NCBI RefSeq assembly: GCF_036345995.1
Contig: NZ_CP107796.1
Location: forward strand, 2,976,001-3,040,000
Origin: Streptomyces sp. NBC_00557
Lineage (GTDB): Bacteria > Actinomycetota > Actinomycetes > Streptomycetales > Streptomycetaceae
Direction of reading: 5' to 3'
Length of the DNA stretch: 64,000 nucleotides
In this document: one piece after another, positions 845-8,872 of the stretch
Layout: every line of letters begins with the position of its first letter
Numbering within the stretch: position 1 is the stretch's first letter
Position numbers and translations under genes: made by a program
The notes under the pieces: model-generated
What the model was told of the DNA's origin: nothing
The model's database searches: none
The model's input: only the letters and a program-made list of their open reading frames with translations

Positions 845-2071
845 TCAGGTGGCGGAACCGGACCGGCCCAGCTGGTTCGCCAAGGCGTGCATGCCGCTCT
901 CTGCGGCAATGCGCCGTAGGTCCTCGACGCCCACCGCGCTCAGGGCGAGCCGGCGGGAAATCCGCTCGACCCGCGCGGCCACGGCGTCGGAATCGGGTGT
1001 GCTGCGAACGGACAGCACGGCGTCCATGGTGTCCAGCAGAGCCGCTCGGCGCACCCGTTCGTCCTCGCACCAAACGTGGAAGAAGGAGTCGCCGAGCACC
1101 ACATACGAGCCCAGTTTGGACAGTGGCATCGGGCCGCCCGGTTCGAAGCACCCGGCAGGAAGGGTGACGCGCCAGTCTCCGCTCCGCCGTTTGACGGGAC
1201 ACCACTGTGCCAGTCCGCGTCGGCTGAGCCAGCCGGACGCCCTGTCACGGAACTCCTGGTCGCGGCCCGCATCGGCCTCTTCCTCCTCCAGCGCGGCAAC
1301 GACGTCCGGAGTGTCCTCGCACACGGCGGTCAGCTCCCCGTCCGCCTCGCCGGCGGCCTGGGCGAAGACGAAGTGCCGCGGTGTCCCGTCGGCGTCGGCC
1401 GCGCGGACGACGTACGTCGGCATGTACATCAGTTCCTCGGCCTCGATCTGCGGGTTCTCGATGCGCTGCGGCAGGTTGTAGAGCTCACGCTCGGGACCGG
1501 CCGCCAGCTCCCTGAGCGCTTCCCGCCGGAAGCCCCGCGGGATGGGAAGCAGGTAGGGGCACGTACCGTCGCGACGATGTGTCTCTTTCTGTGCCTGTGC
1601 GGGGGAAAGGTAGGTGACCTTGCGCTCGTCGTAGTAGAGGCTGGTCAGCGGACGGCTGGCAAGGCCGTCGAAGTACAGATTGCGGTGATCCTCACTGGTC
1701 GCCGTGTACCGAAGGTCGTCCCTCACGGACCGCAGGCCGAGTTCCGTCAGCTGGATCCGTCCGTCGTCGCAGTGCCTGATGTGCCCTATGGCGTCGAGGA
1801 ACCGCAGGGCCTGCTCAACCAGCTGGGGCTCCAGGGCGAGGAAGGCGGCGAGGTCCTCCGTGCGGTCGAGTCCGGCCGTCGCGACGGCCTTCTCAAGAAA
1901 TCGGTCGATCAGCTCGTAGGGTTCGCCCTCGGTGACCTCGGACCGAATCTCCACACACCAGACGGGCCACAGAACACGGTGGATCCGCGTCGGCACGGCA
2001 CGCAGCACATCGGCGACGTACTCCAGCGCCCGTGTCTCGGGATAGGGCATGAACCGGTTCTGCGGGCTCAC
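845..2071 (-). CDS. Hypothetical protein, last gene of the helicase/nucleosidase cassette
   Basis: 408-residue protein I do not recognise. GTG start; its first four bases overlap the end of the upstream helicase gene (GTGA), so the two are probably translationally coupled. No signal peptide or membrane segment. Around residues 80-125 the pattern QALRFLDAIGHIRHCDDGRI followed by a QLTELGLRSV helix looks like a winged-helix module (inference). The middle has a Tyr-rich stretch (LYYDERKVTYLS) and the C-terminal third is helical and rich in Arg and Ala. Because it is coupled to an SF1 helicase it may be the helicase's partner or specificity subunit, in the way helicases of phage-defence loci are paired with unknown proteins. 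That role is inference from position only. Confidence 0.75.
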   Translation of the reverse strand: MSPQNRFMPYPETRALEYVADVLRAVPTRIHRVLWPVWCVEIRSEVTEGEPYELIDRFLEKAVATAGLDRTEDLAAFLALEPQLVEQALRFLDAIGHIRHCDDGRIQLTELGLRSVRDDLRYTATSEDHRNLYFDGLASRPLTSLYYDERKVTYLSPAQAQKETHRRDGTCPYLLPIPRGFRREALRELAAGPERELYNLPQRIENPQIEAEELMYMPTYVVRAADADGTPRHFVFAQAAGEADGELTAVCEDTPDVVAALEEEEADAGRDQEFRDRASGWLSRRGLAQWCPVKRRSGDWRVTLPAGCFEPGGPMPLSKLGSYVVLGDSFFHVWCEDERVRRAALLDTMDAVLSVRSTPDSDAVAARVERISRRLALSAVGVEDLRRIAAESGMHALANQLGRSGSAT

Positions 2072-5028
2072 ATCCGTCCTCTCGCCTCACCGAGTGCGGT
2101 CACACGGTCGCGGATCTCCTGGTACGGCCGGATCTCGCCCCGTTGCCGAAGATGCGTCTCCAGGGAGCGGACCAGCTGACGGAAGCCCGTGTCGCGTGCT
2201 GCGGTCAGCGTCGACAGGTCGCCTACCAGGACCAGTTGTTGCTTGGCACGGGTGAAGGCCACGTTCGCCCGGCGAAGCTCCTTCAGGAACCCGACACGGC
2301 CGTCGCGATTGCTGCGGGTGAATCCATAGAGGATCACGTCGCGCTCACCGCCCTGGAAGGAATCGACGGTACCCACGTTGAGGCCGACGCGGTCCGGGTC
2401 GACGATCCGGGTGAGCCGCGCCGTGATCTCGGCCCGTTGCGCCTGGTAGGGGACAATGACGGCCCACTCTGTGCCCCGGCCGTCGTAGAGGGCGGCAAGT
2501 TCGCTGAGCAGCTCGCACTCGACCTCGTTGATGTAGCCGCGCTGACCGAACCGCTCCGAGCAGCGTCCCTGCCGCTCCTTCCTACGGCCGATGGGCAGGC
2601 CCGAGGTGTCGACGAAGGCCATCGGTGTCCGGAACAGCGGGTCGCGGTGGTCCCTGCGCACCTCCGTGCGCAGCTTGCCGTCGTAGAAGACCCCCGAGAC
2701 GAAGTCGGCGATCACCGACGGCATACGCCGCTGACGGGTCAACAGCACACGGTGATCGTCCGGCATGCCCGGCATCAGGATCTCCAGCACGCTCCGGGAC
2801 AGCAACGCCTTAACCGCCGGGTCTCCAAGGTCCCTTCCCCACGCCTCCACCTCCGAGTCGAGGAAAGGGGGGAGCTGCTGGTGATCGCCCACCAGGACGG
2901 CCCGCCGGGCCCGGACCAGGGGTACGAGAGCATCGGTCACGCCGATCTGCCCGGCCTCGTCCACGACGGCCAGGGAGAAGTCGATGCCGGACAGCTCGGC
3001 CCGCGACGCCACGCCGATGCAGGTGGCGGCGACGACATGCGCATAGCGAATCAGCTCGGGATACAGCTGGTCGACCGCCCCGGAGACCTCCTCGTGCCAG
3101 TCCCTCAGGAGTTGCCCGCGGGCGGCGAGCAGCGGCAGGTGCTCATCGAGCCAGGTCCGCAGGGCGCCCAGTTCCGCGGGGGTGGGGCGGCGTGGGACAG
3201 CCGGTGGCACCTCGGCGGCAGGCACGGCGCCGACGGCGGCACGAGCGGCGGTGACGGCTCGGTCGAGAGTGTCGGCGGCGAGCCGCTCGGCCTGTTCCAT
3301 GACCACTCGGGCCGCCCGTACCGAGGGAAGGTCTCTCGTCATGACATCGAGGTCGCGCTCAGCCGCAGCCAGCTCCTCTGCCACGCCCTGTACGAGCTGC
3401 TCCTGTTCCAGGACCCTGCTGCGGGCCGTGGCGAGACGCCGGCCCAGCACATGCTCAAGCATCCGGAACGGGAAGCCCGTCAGCCGGCGGGCGCCATACC
3501 GTGCGGCGCGTGACCGGGCCCCGGCGAGACGGTCGACGCGCCGTCGAAGGCGTGCCGCCGTTTGTTCGTGGCGCCGGTGCTCGGCGCCCAGCGCCTCGAC
3601 GCGCAGCTGTGCCGGGCCACCTGCGTCGCGACGTGCCGCTGCGTGGGCGTCCCGTGCCCGCGCTGCCTCCTGCAGCGACACGTCCAGGTCCTCCAGACGG
3701 CTGCCCAGCTCGCGGGCCCAGTGCTCGGCGTTGCCGATGTCCGCGTACTCGTCCAGCCTGAGACCGACGCTCCGGAGGATCTCCTCGCGCAGGTCGGCGG
3801 CCTGGCGTTCCAGCAGGAAGGGTCTGCCTTCCTCGGTGACCCTTCCTTCGTTGCCCACCCGCACCGTCACGAGACCGGAGGGGAGGCGGGAGAGCGCGTT
3901 GTCCACCGCGCGGTGGGTGTGCGAGGTCACCAGGACAGGACCGTCACGCCGGCCCGAGCCGGCCGCCGCACCCACGATCTCGGCGATCGTACGTGTCTTG
4001 CCCGTGCCTGGTGGCCCCTGCACCAGCAGCAGGTCCTCGACGGCCAGCGCCTTGCGGAACGCGTCGAGCTGGTCCGGGTCGAGTTCCCCCGCGGGAGTGG
4101 CGGGAGCCGGTCTGAGCCTGCCCACCCGGTGGTCGACCAGCGCATCCAGGAGCCGGGGCGAGCGCGCGTGGCCGTCGCGGAGCAGGGCGACCGCCTCGCG
4201 CTGCCGGTCGAAGACGGCTGTGCCGGGCGTCACGACCAGTTCCCCTTGCGGGTCGAGCCTCCTGAAGTCCACCGGCCGGTCGAAGCGGATCGTGGCCGTG
4301 TCACCGGCCGCCGGGCAGCGGGTCACCTGCCCGCGGAGCTCGGGCCGCCCCCGTAGTTGCACAAACGCCCCCTCTTCCGGCCTGGCCTCTCCGGCGAGCC
4401 GGAACTCGTACACGGCCCGGGTGCCCTGCCGTTGCCCGCCGGTGGCGGCGACGGAGCGATAGGGATACGGCGGCGTGGACGAGACGCTCTCGGACGAGAT
4501 GGTCCGGGTGGCGTCGATCACGCGGTCGACGATGTCCAGGAAGTCCGCGTGGTGTTCAGGAATGGGCGTGGCTCCCCGTTCGATGGCGACACTTTCGACG
4601 GCCCGCTCCCATTCCTTCAGCAGCCGCTGCCAGTGCGCATCGGAGTTCTGCGGTATCTGCCGGTAGTCGCGGCACAGTTGCCAGCGCGTGGGATGCACCA
4701 GCAGGCAGCTCTCGGCCAGCCGGGAGAAGTCTCGCATTCGCAGTGGATCGATCCGCGCGATGCTGTAGGCGTCTGCGCGGTTGGTGAGGTAGAGCTGGGC
4801 TACGTAACCACTGCCGTGGAGGAGCAGGCTCCGGTCGCCACCGGCCCGCCGGGGCTCCACGATCCTCACGGGTATGCCGTCGGCACGGGCATTGAGGTCC
4901 GCGACGAGCTTCTCGGCGTCGCGCGGCAGACGGGGGTGGTCAAGGGCCTTCTGACGTGTGTGAAGGTCCAGTGATCTGCCGGGCACAAGGGTGAGCGGGC
5001 CGGGCAGTTCGACAGTGCGGTAGGACAT
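2068..5028 (-). CDS. Superfamily 1 (UPF1/DNA2-like) AAA helicase
   Basis: 986-residue predicted ATP-dependent helicase. Visible SF1 motifs in order: Walker A VQGPPGTGKTRT near residue 338, motif Ia-like VLVTSHTHRAVDNAL, Walker B VVDEAGQIGVTDAL near residue 687, motif III VLVGDHQQLPPF, RQRRMPSVIADF, motif V TVDSFQGGERDVILYGFTRS near residue 888 and motif VI RRANVAFTRAKQQLVLVGD. The DEAG and FQGGE signatures place it with UPF1/DNA2-type helicases. About 230 residues between Walker A and B are long, Arg/Ala/Glu-rich helices, probably a coiled-coil insertion. The N-terminal 300 residues match nothing I know and may be the target-recognition part. No nuclease motif is evident. It starts 9 bp after the nucleosidase-pseudokinase gene and overlaps the next gene by 4 bp, so it is in one operon with both. 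Confidence 0.9.
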   Translation of the reverse strand: MSYRTVELPGPLTLVPGRSLDLHTRQKALDHPRLPRDAEKLVADLNARADGIPVRIVEPRRAGGDRSLLLHGSGYVAQLYLTNRADAYSIARIDPLRMRDFSRLAESCLLVHPTRWQLCRDYRQIPQNSDAHWQRLLKEWERAVESVAIERGATPIPEHHADFLDIVDRVIDATRTISSESVSSTPPYPYRSVAATGGQRQGTRAVYEFRLAGEARPEEGAFVQLRGRPELRGQVTRCPAAGDTATIRFDRPVDFRRLDPQGELVVTPGTAVFDRQREAVALLRDGHARSPRLLDALVDHRVGRLRPAPATPAGELDPDQLDAFRKALAVEDLLLVQGPPGTGKTRTIAEIVGAAAGSGRRDGPVLVTSHTHRAVDNALSRLPSGLVTVRVGNEGRVTEEGRPFLLERQAADLREEILRSVGLRLDEYADIGNAEHWARELGSRLEDLDVSLQEAARARDAHAAARRDAGGPAQLRVEALGAEHRRHEQTAARLRRRVDRLAGARSRAARYGARRLTGFPFRMLEHVLGRRLATARSRVLEQEQLVQGVAEELAAAERDLDVMTRDLPSVRAARVVMEQAERLAADTLDRAVTAARAAVGAVPAAEVPPAVPRRPTPAELGALRTWLDEHLPLLAARGQLLRDWHEEVSGAVDQLYPELIRYAHVVAATCIGVASRAELSGIDFSLAVVDEAGQIGVTDALVPLVRARRAVLVGDHQQLPPFLDSEVEAWGRDLGDPAVKALLSRSVLEILMPGMPDDHRVLLTRQRRMPSVIADFVSGVFYDGKLRTEVRRDHRDPLFRTPMAFVDTSGLPIGRRKERQGRCSERFGQRGYINEVECELLSELAALYDGRGTEWAVIVPYQAQRAEITARLTRIVDPDRVGLNVGTVDSFQGGERDVILYGFTRSNRDGRVGFLKELRRANVAFTRAKQQLVLVGDLSTLTAARDTGFRQLVRSLETHLRQRGEIRPYQEIRDRVTALGEARGRM

Positions 5029-5037
5029 TCGCGCTCC

Positions 5038-6750
5038 TCAGGGCCGGGAGTAGGCGTCACGCGCACGGAGGAGTTCTTTCCGCAGCCGGTAGGGGTCTGG
5101 CCGGTCGGTGGGTGCGTCGGCCAGAGCGGCCAGCACCGCTCGCTCGAGGAGCTCGGGCAGGTCCGGGGTGTAGGCCCGCAGCGGCAGAGGGGTGCCGGAG
5201 GCAGGCGGTCGACCGGTGATCAGGTGATAGGCCACGGCACCGAGCTGGTAGACGTCGGTCCGTGTCCCGGCCGCTGCCGGAAGGCTGGAGCGCTGCCGCT
5301 GCTCAGGCGCCTGATACAGCCGTGGACCTTCACCGGGAACCGGATCGTGCGCGGCGAGCCCGAGGTCGCGCAGTACCCACCGGCCCGGACCGTTCTCGAC
5401 GATCGCGGAGGGGCTGAGGCACCGGTGGGAGAGGCGCTCGCGGTGCAGTTCACCGAGCGCGAGGCACATCCCGGCAAGGCCGGTGAGCAGGTCGAAGAGT
5501 CTCGGGTCCCCGAACGCCATCGCTCGGTCAAGGGTCGGGGACGGAATTCCCGACCGGGGTGCCACAGGCCAGGAGAGGACGAGCGTCGTGGTGTCGCCCT
5601 CCGCGACGACCAGCCCGGCCTGAGGCAGGCCTGGGCGCGCACGCAACCGGCCGAGAATCCGGTTCTCGCGGACGAGAGCCTCACCGCCCGCCCGCCCCGG
5701 CCGGATCCCGGCACGTGCCTCGGTCTGGCGTAACCAGACGTAGCGGGCCTCCTGCTTCGGCTCGGGTGACAGTTGGCGGGCGACTGCCTGACGCCATACC
5801 AGCGTGCCGTCCGCCGAACGGATCTCCGTCAGCAGGTCCGCGTGCAGCAGGTAGCGCCGGTCACCACACTTGATCTCCGCGCCCCCGTGCCATCCCGCGG
5901 TGGTGCGTGTCGATGCCGAGGGGGCGGGGGAGGAAACGAGGAGGACCTTCCCCGGGGCGGCTGCGACCGACCTGTCCTGACGGCTCGTGGGCGCCGGCAG
6001 CCGGCGGAGAACCGCGACGGCCAGCGCGGCCGCGTTGCGAGCGGCGATCCGCTGCCATCCCTCGCCGTCCGTGGCCGACTTGGTGCCGTCCGCCCGGTCG
6101 CTGATGCCGCGTACGATCATCGTCCGGAGACCCGTGTTGAGCTGGGTTGCACGGGCGATCCCCCCGCTCTCCATCTCGATGGCCACAGCGTCCTCATAGT
6201 GGCGCCGCAGAAAGTCCCGGACCGCGGACTCGTCGTCGTTGACGAGGATCTCGCCCGCGGCAATGGGCTTGAAATGGACCGCAGGGCCGTCAGTGCCCTC
6301 CTCGGCCGACGACGCCAGCCACGAGCGTCCCCTGCCGACGGCCCGGGCCAACTGCTCCAGCGTGTGGTCCGGCCGCCACGCCTCGGGCCTGCCCAGGAAT
6401 TCCCCCTTCTCCTCCTTGCCGCCGTGGTACGAGTAGATCTTGGTCGCGAAGACGACGTCTCCCAGCCGGACGCTCGGCTTCAGCCTCCCGGCCACCCCGA
6501 CGAGGACAAGGGCGTGCGGGCGGAACAGAGCAATGGCCCGTTCAGCGAAGACCGCCGCTCCCTGGTTGCCCTCACCGATCTCGGCCAGAGCCACCCGCCA
6601 GGACGTGCCGTTGAGCCAACCGACCTCGAAGAGCAGGCCATTTTCCAAACGCGGTTGCAACGCGACCACGTGCTCACGGACGGCCTCGTACTCCACCCCG
6701 ATGGCCGTCAGGACGACGATCGTCCCCTCGGGAGCATCTGTCTCCCCCAT
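5038..6750 (-). CDS. MTA/SAH-type nucleosidase fused to a degenerate protein kinase domain
   Basis: 570 residues from the ATG at 6750, preceded by GGGGGA; an in-frame extension to 6852 lacks family-like sequence. Residues about 1-250 are a phosphorylase-superfamily (PNP/UDP) nucleosidase: VVLTAIGVEYEAVREH at the start, VLVGVAGRLKPSVRLGDVV, the substrate-binding EMESGGIARAT near residue 193 and GISDRAD near 217 carrying the expected catalytic Asp. The C-terminal half resembles a Ser/Thr kinase lobe: ALGELHRERLSHRCLSPSAI, RDLGLAAHD, YQAPEQR and DVYQLGAVAYHLITGRPP. The catalytic loop reads HRCLSPSAI where active kinases have HRDLKPSNI, so both the catalytic Asp and the metal-binding Asn are missing: a predicted pseudokinase. 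A likely role is hydrolysis of a nucleoside or nucleotide signal gated by the pseudokinase (inference). Confidence 0.85.
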   Translation of the reverse strand: MGETDAPEGTIVVLTAIGVEYEAVREHVVALQPRLENGLLFEVGWLNGTSWRVALAEIGEGNQGAAVFAERAIALFRPHALVLVGVAGRLKPSVRLGDVVFATKIYSYHGGKEEKGEFLGRPEAWRPDHTLEQLARAVGRGRSWLASSAEEGTDGPAVHFKPIAAGEILVNDDESAVRDFLRRHYEDAVAIEMESGGIARATQLNTGLRTMIVRGISDRADGTKSATDGEGWQRIAARNAAALAVAVLRRLPAPTSRQDRSVAAAPGKVLLVSSPAPSASTRTTAGWHGGAEIKCGDRRYLLHADLLTEIRSADGTLVWRQAVARQLSPEPKQEARYVWLRQTEARAGIRPGRAGGEALVRENRILGRLRARPGLPQAGLVVAEGDTTTLVLSWPVAPRSGIPSPTLDRAMAFGDPRLFDLLTGLAGMCLALGELHRERLSHRCLSPSAIVENGPGRWVLRDLGLAAHDPVPGEGPRLYQAPEQRQRSSLPAAAGTRTDVYQLGAVAYHLITGRPPASGTPLPLRAYTPDLPELLERAVLAALADAPTDRPDPYRLRKELLRARDAYSRP

Positions 6751-6852
6751 AAGTCCCCCGTTGCCAGCAGTGCCTGCTGTTTCGGCATCGCATCGTAGGA
6801 GAAGTTCCACGCCGGGCGATGGCCGTTGCCTCAAGGACCGTCGTGGTCTCAT

Positions 6853-7404
6853 TCATGTGGTCCGTAACTCTGCGTAGAGCGCGATCTGAACGGCCAGAAC
6901 GATGATCCCTGCCACCTCGGCAAGGGACACCGTCAGGAGGGCGACCTCTACGGGGCCCATCGCCCAGAAGACCACGACAGCTGCCATGGAGGTCCCACAG
7001 AAGGTGAGCAGGTCCACGGCGAACTGCAGCCACTTGCGCGATGTCCTGCGGCGGTCACTGCGGTGCACCGTTTCCCATCCGAAGATCGGTTCGGACTCCT
7101 GGCTGTCCGTCAGTGCCGTAAGTCGCGGCGTGAGCTCCTCGCGTATGTATCGGCCAATGGCGGAGATTTTCTGGTCGTTCACCAGGTATGTCCAGCCCAG
7201 CAACAGTGACACCGGCGGAAGCAGGAGCAGCAGCTGAAGGTGCGGTCCTCCCCCTATGACAGCCGCGACGACGGCGGCCATCGAACCAAGACTGGCGTAC
7301 AGCAGATTGTCACGGAACCCGATGCGCGCTCGTTGCTCCTCCTTGAGAACCTGGTACTCGCCGAGGAGCAACTCGCCGACCGTGATGTGCCCCCTGATTG
7401 CCAC
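6853..7404 (-). CDS. Small four-helix membrane protein, first gene of the cassette
   Basis: 183 residues from the GTG at 7404, which has a good GGGGAG ribosome binding site six bases upstream; an in-frame ATG at 7449 would add an unlikely Gly/Arg-rich tail. A cytosolic N-terminus rich in Glu/Arg/Lys is followed by two adjacent membrane helices (LLYASLGSMAAVVAAVIGGG and LQLLLLLPPVSLLLGWTYLV), a charged cytosolic loop of about 65 residues and two more helices (LTFCGTSMAAVVVFWAMG and VALLTVSLAEVAGIIVLAVQ). The 2+loop+2 layout is reminiscent of membrane effectors of nucleotide-signal conflict systems such as SLATT-type proteins, but I see no specific signature. It is the promoter-proximal gene of the minus-strand run, 102 bp before the nucleosidase start. 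Confidence 0.75.
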   Translation of the reverse strand: MAIRGHITVGELLLGEYQVLKEEQRARIGFRDNLLYASLGSMAAVVAAVIGGGPHLQLLLLLPPVSLLLGWTYLVNDQKISAIGRYIREELTPRLTALTDSQESEPIFGWETVHRSDRRRTSRKWLQFAVDLLTFCGTSMAAVVVFWAMGPVEVALLTVSLAEVAGIIVLAVQIALYAELRTT

Positions 7405-7636
7405 AGTTCTCCCCCCGCCGGTACTCGACCGCCCAACCCGCCCGAACATCGCGGAAGCCCGAGAGACCGGCCGACGTCCCCGGACTGCGCGCCCTGGAAA
7501 TCATGGCGGAGGCGACCGCGTCGATGCGGCGTTTCAGCCGCAGGGCCTTCCAGCTCTCTCCAACCCCCTGCCACGGGCGCCTCCGTGCCTGCACTATCGC
7601 CTGACACAGACACGGTGTAACAGGTCCGGGGGAAGC

Positions 7637-8236
7637 ATGAGCGTTCATGGCGGAGGAAACGGAGCGGACGAATGGCTCGAGCGGGATCTGTTCACGCTCC
7701 GCGAGCGCTACGAAGAGAACTTGGAAGCCGAACGCCGACGGCACGAGGAGGAGCTGGAAACCCAACGGGAGCTGCACGCCCGGGAGCTGGATGACCTGCG
7801 ACAACGGCACCACGAAGAGCTGGACACTGCTCGCCAGGAGCTGACAGACACTCTCCTCGCCCTGCAGAACCAGGACCAACAGCAGATCGACGAACTTCGA
7901 GACAGCTACGAGTCCCGGATCGACGAACTTCGGGACAGCTACGAGTCCCGGATCGCCGCACTCGAAGAGGAACTCCAAGACGCACGAGACCAGTACGCCC
8001 AGGACCGGGCCGACTGGCACGGACAGGAGCAAGACTACGAACAGCAGGTCAGAGACGCCTACCAGGAGGGTTGGCAAGACGGCCGGCAGGAACTCGAACA
8101 GGAACTCGAGGAGGCGGCACATGCGCGAGACGTACAGGCCGCACGGGATGCGCGCGCCCTGTCCTGCCTACGTGTAGTGATCTTCCTTGCCGTTGTTCTC
8201 ATTGCGTTCAGCATCCTGCGCTCCTTGGGCAGTTGA
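7637..8236 (+). CDS. Tail-anchored coiled-coil protein, divergent from the cassette
   Basis: 199 residues, ATG preceded by a GGGGGAA ribosome binding site. Nearly the whole protein is Glu/Arg/Gln-rich heptad/hendecad coiled coil (repeated LRERYEENLEAERRRHEEEL-like segments), ending in a single hydrophobic helix VVIFLAVVLIAFSIL four to five residues from the stop, so it is a predicted C-tail-anchored membrane protein facing the cytoplasm. A perfect 11-residue duplication (IDELRDSYESR twice, encoded by a nearly identical 33-bp tandem repeat at 7886-7951) lies in the middle. It is divergently transcribed from the membrane protein/nucleosidase/helicase run with a 230-bp shared control region, so it may be part of that system, but this is positional inference. 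Confidence 0.8.
   Translation: MSVHGGGNGADEWLERDLFTLRERYEENLEAERRRHEEELETQRELHARELDDLRQRHHEELDTARQELTDTLLALQNQDQQQIDELRDSYESRIDELRDSYESRIAALEEELQDARDQYAQDRADWHGQEQDYEQQVRDAYQEGWQDGRQELEQELEEAAHARDVQAARDARALSCLRVVIFLAVVLIAFSILRSLGS
7886..7951 (+). repeat. 33-bp in-frame tandem duplication
   Basis: Two adjacent 33-bp units (7886-7918 and 7919-7951) differ at one base and each encode IDELRDSYESR. Eleven residues is one hendecad of coiled coil, so the duplication lengthens the rod without breaking its phase. Confidence 0.9.
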
Positions 8237-8409: not shown

Positions 8410-8561
8410 TCAGGAGCGATAGCGCGCTGCGCGGATCATGATCTCCCGGTCAGTGACCAGGTAGACAAGACGGTGCTCGTCGTCGATCCGCCGCGACCAC
8501 GCTCCGGGCAGGTGGTACTTGAGCGGCTCGGGCAGCCCCGGTCTTCGAAGACGAGCCTCAC
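8410..8561 (-). pseudogene. YoeB-type mRNA endonuclease toxin, internally deleted
   Basis: The reading frame begins GTG at 8561, overlapping the antitoxin stop (GTGA) as expected of a YefM-YoeB pair, and gives VRLVFEDRG, the first strand of YoeB. Directly after this the other frame reads [27 protein letters not shown] and finally IRAARYRS before a TGA at 8410, which is the conserved C-terminal half of YoeB (compare the E. coli order PEPLK, WSRR, EHRLVY, CRYHY). About 33 codons of the middle are missing and the junction changes frame, so no functional toxin can be made. This looks like a deletion joining the two ends of the gene, leaving an orphan antitoxin. Confidence 0.8.
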
Positions 8562-8872
8562 GTAGCACCCTCGTGTGCCGCATCGGGCGAGTCGGGGTCG
8601 ATCAGCTCCCGCTCGGACACGTTGATGTTGGCCAGGGCATTCTCGTACGCCTTGAGCAGTCGCCGTGCGTTCGCAGGTGAGCGCAGCAGGTACGAGCCCT
8701 CTCGCAGCGCTGCGTAATCCTCGGCTGAGACGAGCACGGCATTGCCGTGTTTGGAGACGATCTCGATGGCCTCGTGATCGTCGTTGACCTTCTCGATCAG
8801 CGGAAAGAGCGCCTTGCGGGCTTCCAGCACCGGCACACAACGAGGGGTCGACCCCGAACGGGTCGACCCCAT
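8558..8872 (-). CDS. YefM/Phd-family antitoxin (toxin partner defunct)
   Basis: 104 residues. The core [39 protein letters not shown] and [19 protein letters not shown] is a typical Phd/YefM antitoxin: N-terminal DNA-binding and dimerisation part, then a flexible toxin-binding tail. The family represses its own operon and neutralises a YoeB-type ribosome-dependent RNase. The ATG at 8872 has a weak AGG upstream; a GTG at 8836 would give a start closer to other family members, in which case the paired palindromes at 8845-8869 would be operator DNA rather than coding. Here the toxin gene that follows is a remnant, so the antitoxin may persist as an anti-addiction gene or repressor, or be on its way out. 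Confidence 0.85.
8845..8869 (-). promoter_or_regulatory. Paired 10-bp palindromes at the antitoxin start
   Basis: Two copies of the perfect palindrome GGGTCGACCC are separated by 5 bp, putting their centres 15 bp apart. The arrangement fits an autoregulatory operator for the YefM-like antitoxin, which binds palindromes as paired dimers. The site lies either just inside the gene (ATG at 8872) or just upstream (GTG at 8836). Confidence 0.5.

Follow-up and report, generated by a model that had tools for sequence, protein, structure and literature searches.

A conserved actinobacterial core of pseudokinase, SF1 helicase and MkoB-like protein with exchangeable effector-type domains, putatively a conflict system related to Mokosh type I

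In Mokosh type I the kinase and an Upf1-like SF1 helicase form one MkoA polypeptide. A true Streptomyces MkoA (L126) displays this arrangement, with a full kinase in which HRD and DFG are present (Pkinase 5.7e-26), and the MkoB at that locus contains the motif HxKxxxxD (PLDc_2 4.8e-7). Effectors that can be exchanged have been described elsewhere. The PF01048 module is shared by the Cap17-type PNP effectors of Detocs, CBASS, pAgo, DRT8 and NLR-like systems, and a table citing Rousset et al. 2023 lists the PNP effectors of known systems as degrading (d)ATP (PMC10952713). Actinobacterial VMAP/ternary systems, as portrayed by Kaur et al. 2020 and 2021, combine exchangeable PNPase, TIR and REase effectors with inactive kinases, and BASS3 is a RHIM-like motif on NLR-type receptors (PMC8086366). 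In Hachiman and likewise in Gabija, a helicase is described as sensing the trigger or as activating the nuclease with which it is partnered. Both have a fixed nuclease effector, and their helicases belong to families other than that of the SF1 core presented below.

We analyzed a window of 64,000 nucleotides from Streptomyces sp. NBC_00557 (NZ_CP107796.1, contig positions 2976001-3040000), in which genes were called with a purpose-written codon-position gene caller and domains were assigned by Pfam and PADLOC scans. A first-pass annotation had proposed a possible conflict or defense system made up of four packed minus-strand genes and a divergent coiled-coil gene. The gene caller confirmed the four co-directional minus-strand genes, which run from 7404 to 845 and are separated by 102, 9 and -4 bp (Table 1).

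Table 1. Features of the candidate system and its divergent neighbor, in window coordinates.
Feature	Position	Strand	Basis or remark
MkoB-like protein, 408 aa	845..2071	-	MarR/Csa3-type winged helix at residues 48-120
SF1 helicase, Upf1/SMUBP2/DNA2 type, 986 aa	2068..5028	-	AAA_11/AAA_12, PADLOC MkoA and PDB matches
MTA/SAH-nucleosidase-like domain (~1-254) and pseudokinase (~285-570), 570 aa	5038..6750	-	PNP_UDP_1, PADLOC
Predicted four-helix membrane protein, accessory to nucleosidase module, 183 aa	6853..7404	-	Streptomyces homologues, AF2
Coiled-coil ORF, divergent, C-terminal hydrophobic stretch	7637..8236	+	Judged outside the system

The locus shares with Mokosh type I a homologous Upf1-like SF1 helicase, a kinase fold encoded upstream and the N-terminal part of MkoB. 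It differs in that kinase and helicase are separate genes, in the loss of the HRD Asp, in the absence of the PLD motif, and in the varying effector-type domain fused to the kinase-like protein. With the Cap17-type effectors it has the PF01048 module in common, whereas the partners here are a pseudokinase and a helicase; receiver domain, cyclase, Argonaute and STAND were unmatched among the window genes scanned, as were the CBASS, Detocs and VMAP partners (cyclase, two-component, vWA-MoxR). The VMAP/ternary systems are set apart by the fact that the window cluster has no vWA, MoxR or VMAP match and that its constant part is the SF1 helicase, a core of which the portions of Kaur et al. 2020 and 2021 drawn on make no mention. 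A further likeness to those systems is seen in L062:8395-10682, where a relative of the window's membrane protein is encoded directly before an EAD2-VMAP gene of ternary conflict systems, with no nucleosidase. No description of the core with exchangeable effectors was found in the open-licence PMC papers searched. The first-pass statement that no described system has this gene set must nevertheless be amended insofar as the helicase unit has a described relative in Mokosh type I, though the full gene set differs.

On sequence comparison, a three-gene core is conserved, which consists of the predicted pseudokinase, the Upf1-like SF1 helicase and the MkoB-like winged-helix protein. A protein search in which the best 7997 candidates were scored gave at least 59 relatives of the 408-aa protein, the window's own included. 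A 32-sequence profile of this protein led to 35 loci in actinobacterial genomes, and 10 further loci with wide flanks (L051-L060) came from nine genomes, out of 16 further match rows, so that the sample comprises 45 actinobacterial loci with the window excluded (L061 lies on the same contig as L104 and is uncounted). According to HMMs built here, the helicase gene is directly upstream of the MkoB-like gene and on the same strand in 42 of the 44 gene-called loci (the misses are L089 and L104; L105 is without a gene call), and tblastn found the helicase in the same 42 of the 45 loci. The commonest gap between the two genes is -4 bp. Since they are adjacent and co-directional in so many loci, the gene set is beyond chance. 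The pseudokinase gene in turn immediately precedes that of the helicase in 39 of the 44 loci, the misses being L058 (helicase frame interrupted), L085 (contig end), L089, L090 and L104; in the window and in the 39 loci with adjacent calls for the two, pseudokinase and helicase are separate genes. Co-occurrence in other genomes, proposed at the outset as a check, was thus found: the core recurs in the 45 loci, in the order kinase-helicase-MkoB.

The assignment of the 986-aa protein to the SF1 helicases was upheld in Pfam by AAA_11 (4.7e-38) and AAA_12 (1.1e-35). It matches PADLOC MkoA at 2.5e-102 over profile positions 430-1103, and its best PDB matches are SMUBP-2, DNA2 and NAM7/Upf1. A match to the NCBIfam model 'PLuB' (3.7e-42) is far under the cut-off of that model, and a literature search on the name gave nothing relevant. 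The coupled partner, which had been called unknown, is homologous to the N-terminal region of PADLOC MkoB (7.2e-17) and lacks the PLD nuclease: PLD is absent from the Pfam scan of 845-2071, where no family exceeds its cut-off and DUF7514 (0.17) is the sole match, and the motif HxKxxxxD occurs in 0 of 42 MkoB-like proteins in a check that detects it in L126 MkoB. Foldseek returned nothing at E <= 0.001 for this protein, the top matches covering at most 111 columns. The MkoB-like protein was considered as a nuclease, a role that is unsupported; the VIA rows mainly cover residues 48-120. Helicase and MkoB-like protein are presumably the sensing part. The earlier proposal that they act as sensor is supported to the extent that they are the constant part of the system, and sensing itself is presumed. 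A related cluster in L127:1307-12560 comprises VWA, kinase, Mokosh-like helicase, MkoB-like, AAA_5 and DUF2357 genes; its MkoB-like protein is without a Pfam PLD match, and its output is possibly McrBC-like.

The reading of the third gene as a nucleosidase-pseudokinase agrees with a PNP_UDP_1 match (1.6e-29), behind which Pkinase matches weakly (6e-4, below the Pfam cut-off). The kinase-like part of 5038-6750 matches the kinase region of PADLOC MkoA at 1.2e-11, and the HRD Asp position is occupied by Cys. This catalytic Asp is replaced in 38 of 40 aligned pseudokinases, the window's included (it is kept in L100 and L103), and the DFG-type Asp is kept in all 40; L063 and L105 were left out of the alignment by choice, and L060, L085, L089, L090 and L104 gave no hit. 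Among 21 kinase-like proteins scanned, L103 alone passed the Pfam Pkinase cut-off. Because the catalytic Asp is lost in nearly all members and the Pkinase cut-off is rarely passed, the kinase fold is more likely an adaptor than an enzyme in this family, with L100 and L103 perhaps excepted.

The domain that precedes the pseudokinase differs by lineage, and seven types were labelled over 40 loci. The nucleosidase type occurs in 12 loci including the window (with a tblastn match in 11 of the 45 related loci), and PNP_UDP_1 was found in all five such proteins scanned, at 4.3e-27 to 5.7e-34 in three relatives and 6.4e-23 in a fourth. Four loci have a SEFIR domain (L071 2.8e-10, L074 2.6e-11, L079 2.7e-9; L102 7e-4, below cut-off) and one a TIR domain (L055, TIR_2 6.5e-31). 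Eight loci have a probable PD-(D/E)xK nuclease, a label read from the motif; in Pfam, six of these eight proteins gave Mrr_cat at 0.095 (L053) and 0.11 (L059) and no hit in the other four. The remaining types are hydrophobic helices (two loci, read from sequence), an NGD..GDQ motif (three loci, one with a BTAD domain) and a short RHIM-like motif (10 loci). In the helicase tree, with labels on 40 of its 42 rows (L085, L089, L104 and L105 left out, L090 and L101 unlabelled), the seven states need 7 changes over the labelled rows compared with a mean of 24.2 for shuffled labels, so that each domain type is clustered. However, the count should be taken as modest evidence, since seven labels alone already require at least 6 changes, and some labels were read by eye. 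One homologous core carries unrelated domains, and each kind occupies a separate region of the tree. There is weak support for two origins of the nucleosidase type: 2 changes are forced by the nucleosidase tree, with a long-branch warning, and only 1 by the starred branches of the helicase tree.

In the window protein the exchangeable position is held by a phosphorylase-fold domain with complete presumed catalytic residues, as in Cap17/Detocs-type PNP effectors. It matches the PADLOC CBASS PN-superfamily effector at 1.6e-16, and it aligns full-length with MTA/SAH nucleosidases, its best PDB relatives; that these are metabolic enzymes was counted against an effector reading. All 12 nucleosidase-pseudokinase proteins share E20, M193-E194 and D218 without exception, and we take Glu20, Met193-Glu194 and Asp218 to correspond to the active-site residues of E. 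coli MTA/SAH nucleosidase. Given this invariance and the (d)ATP degradation by PNP effectors in known systems, the likeliest output of the window system would be a nucleotide-destroying effector. The domain had earlier been thought to make or remove a nucleotide signal, and it now seems more likely to be an end effector that destroys nucleotides, as in Cap17/Detocs.

The adjoining gene was described as encoding a 2+2-helix membrane protein, which fits an AlphaFold2 model with four main helices (pLDDT 87.5). No Pfam match was obtained for the window protein, and Pfam scans of 31 homologues gave weak DUF3593/holin-type hits alone (best 0.0034). A known fold was sought and none was found at E <= 0.001, the best match being a designed transmembrane pore (E 0.52). 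The protein has matches in 53 of 199 Streptomyces, its own genome included. Among the best 30 of these 53 genomes, the gene adjoins a nucleosidase in at least 24 loci with the window counted (16 divergent, 8 co-directional) and in at least 23 of 29 without it; in L066 the nucleosidase neighbor was added by the Pfam scan. Within the core family, half of the 12 nucleosidase-type loci have the gene: it lies upstream in two of them, the window and L051, and downstream of MkoB in L087, L088, L092 and L095. It was found in 0 of the 28 other labelled core loci, and L094 keeps a fragment of it. As it adjoins nucleosidases and, in the core family, is found solely with nucleosidase-type loci, the membrane protein is assigned by its gene neighborhood to the nucleosidase module. 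Its inclusion in the original gene set is qualified by the observation that it mostly travels with nucleosidases in the absence of the helicase, so that the genes do in part occur independently. In L063:7028-11488 the membrane gene has a nucleosidase gene on either side, one of them encoding 853 aa with nucleosidase and kinase-like parts, and no helicase match lies within 7.5 kb of the membrane gene.

Ten pseudokinases, that of the window not among them, bear the motif NxVxGxVxGxVVQAGxIxGDVH, which we name RHIM-like for an apparent likeness. As with BASS3, which it may resemble, the motif is short, and here it is found on pseudokinases and NB-ARC proteins of the same genomes; it differs in that its carrier is a pseudokinase beside a helicase and not an NLR. 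The motif is common in the carrier genomes (those of L075-L098): a 10-region profile placed it at 5-27 sites per genome (E <= 0.05, the pseudokinase counted) in all 10. The 10 motif proteins scanned contained NB-ARC (6), WD40 (1), response regulator (1) or SEFIR (1) domains, and one had no match. Two SEFIR proteins carry the motif at their C-terminus, namely L199 in the L077 genome (SEFIR 8.8e-14, motif 6.1e-8) and L204 in the L083 genome (5.5e-16 and 2.3e-5), and the pseudokinases of L077 and L083 carry it as well. SEFIR is thus fused in cis to the pseudokinase in Amycolatopsis and encoded in trans, with a shared motif, in Actinophytocola. Pseudokinase and trans SEFIR protein may meet, although the motif is common in these genomes. 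More generally, the RHIM-like motif probably recruits effectors in trans. Its occurrence on adaptor, NB-ARC receptors and SEFIR proteins alike would join the helicase sensor to an NLR-type network, in a group of RHIM-like, kinase-fold adaptors that is mostly Pseudonocardiaceae. As a tentative extension, which we hold to be possible and no better than that, a helicase/winged-helix sensor would use a dead kinase as its adaptor to drive some six interchangeable outputs, and RHIM-like adaptors would enter an NLR prion-like death network, as a bacterial counterpart of necroptosis triggered by nucleic acid.

The MkoB-like protein was found in 2 of 199 Streptomyces, which are its own genome and a partial match on a 4.4-kb contig, and in 15 of 394 genomes of the class, its own included; the full-length helicase was found in 1 of 61 Streptomyces, again its own genome. 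The rarity of the core in Streptomyces was counted against our best explanation. The chromosomal site behind ychF is variable, because the five window genes are absent (none at E <= 1e-5) from 20 of 20 stretches behind ychF in other Streptomyces, and gene orders differ. These stretches are 14 kb each, one being 6 kb, and ychF is uncalled in one; gene sizes differ as well, a GntR gene is kept in 9 of 20 at varying distance, and a Phd antitoxin is present in 2. The check for a variable site, suggested with the first-pass annotation, therefore came out in favor of its proposal. A Phd/YefM antitoxin gene lies beside ychF in the window as well (8558-8836, minus strand). In L153 and L166 an 84-aa gene directly follows the antitoxin gene, whereas the window has no gene call at that place; the toxin of the window pair may thus be disrupted.

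The divergent coiled-coil gene is a real ORF that lies outside the conserved set, contrary to the first-pass proposal. It gave six weak partial matches among 149 other Streptomyces (1.7e-5 to 7e-4, 31-38% identity), all in open frames of 883-1651 aa and read as coiled-coil similarity, and tblastn against the 45 related loci gave nothing. As no orthologue was found, it was dropped as a partner of the system.

Known defense proteins were detected at 1e-10 or better in 5 of 9 neighbor genes scanned, a sample of large genes from related loci chosen for size. L053 has DrmD beside MkoB, and in L056 the second gene along is DrmMI (E = 0 for both); L071 and L089 each have a mad8-like gene, and L103 has an MTase_I/mad2-like gene; of the other four, two matched TPR alone and two nothing. 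In L053 and L056 a probable nuclease-type core lies upstream of the DISARM genes, and L054 has a gene similar in size to the DrmD of L053. The conflict or defense role first suggested for the locus is supported by the Mokosh likeness in PADLOC, the differing effector-type domains and the DISARM/MADS-like neighbors of some relatives, and further by the sparse distribution and the variable chromosomal site.

We propose, with moderate confidence, that the locus encodes a relative of Mokosh type I, namely a modular abortive-infection system that senses nucleic acid and uses a pseudokinase as adaptor. The role in phage defense, the trigger, the substrate, the order of activation, the sensing step and the task of the membrane protein are what we infer from the genes. 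The Upf1-like helicase and the winged-helix MkoB-like protein would survey nucleic acid, and upon meeting a phage-associated structure the helicase unit would alter the state of the catalytically dead pseudokinase. This change would activate the domain fused at the N-terminus of the adaptor. In the window the nucleosidase would then bring the cell to a halt by hydrolyzing (d)ATP or some other purine nucleotide, with the membrane partner helping, anchoring or restraining it, and in relatives TIR, SEFIR, a probable nuclease, hydrophobic helices or the RHIM-like motif would occupy the same socket.

Other explanations have to be weighed against this proposal. A second-messenger system, in which a nucleotide signal is produced or cleared by the nucleosidase and the effector is the membrane protein, opening the envelope, would account for the membrane gene adjoining a nucleosidase in at least 23 of 29 other Streptomyces loci and for the designed transmembrane pore as the best, non-significant match of its model (E 0.52), and PNPases have been proposed as messenger makers by Kaur et al. 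(PMC7159879). Such a system is unlikely, however, because TIR, SEFIR and probable nuclease domains in the place of the nucleosidase suggest end-effectors, and 6 of 12 nucleosidase-type loci are without an intact membrane gene in the stretch examined. It is quite unlikely, too, that we are dealing with a divergent Mokosh type I that degrades phage RNA and has the nucleosidase as a passenger. The matches of helicase and MkoB-like protein to PADLOC MkoA and MkoB, and of the pseudokinase to the MkoA kinase region, agree with that reading, but the PLD motif is missing from all 42 MkoB-like proteins, the kinase is split off and without its catalytic Asp, and the nucleosidase is an in-frame fusion in 12 loci, the window included. 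Moreover, a true Mokosh I is encoded elsewhere in the genus Streptomyces (L126), and probable MkoB-helicase pairs, read by likeness alone, are present in L205-L207.

The genes could also be two unrelated modules side by side, a membrane-nucleosidase pair and a helicase-MkoB pair, considering that the former occurs without the helicase and that the nucleosidase tree needs 3 context changes. We regard this as very unlikely, since nucleosidase and pseudokinase are a single polypeptide and, in 39 of 44 loci, the gene before the helicase encodes a pseudokinase. Least probable of all is a housekeeping or stress operon for RNA or DNA repair with an Upf1-like helicase, regulators and a salvage nucleosidase. 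The MTA/SAH-nucleosidase-like sequence and the DNA2/Upf1-like helicase would suit it, but the distribution is sparse in genus (2/199) and class (15/394, own genome in both), the site is variable, TIR or SEFIR replaces the nucleosidase, and DISARM genes are among the neighbors.

In conclusion, the presented data describe a recognizable actinobacterial family whose members the PADLOC models used name as partial Mokosh hits alone. If our proposal is true, the Mokosh-related sensor would be a general platform and not just one system for RNA degradation, with an inactive kinase as the connector that permits the exchange of effectors. Members with a RHIM-like motif would tie sensing by a helicase to NLR-type signaling, and the coupling of effectors through a pseudokinase would become testable in bacteria.
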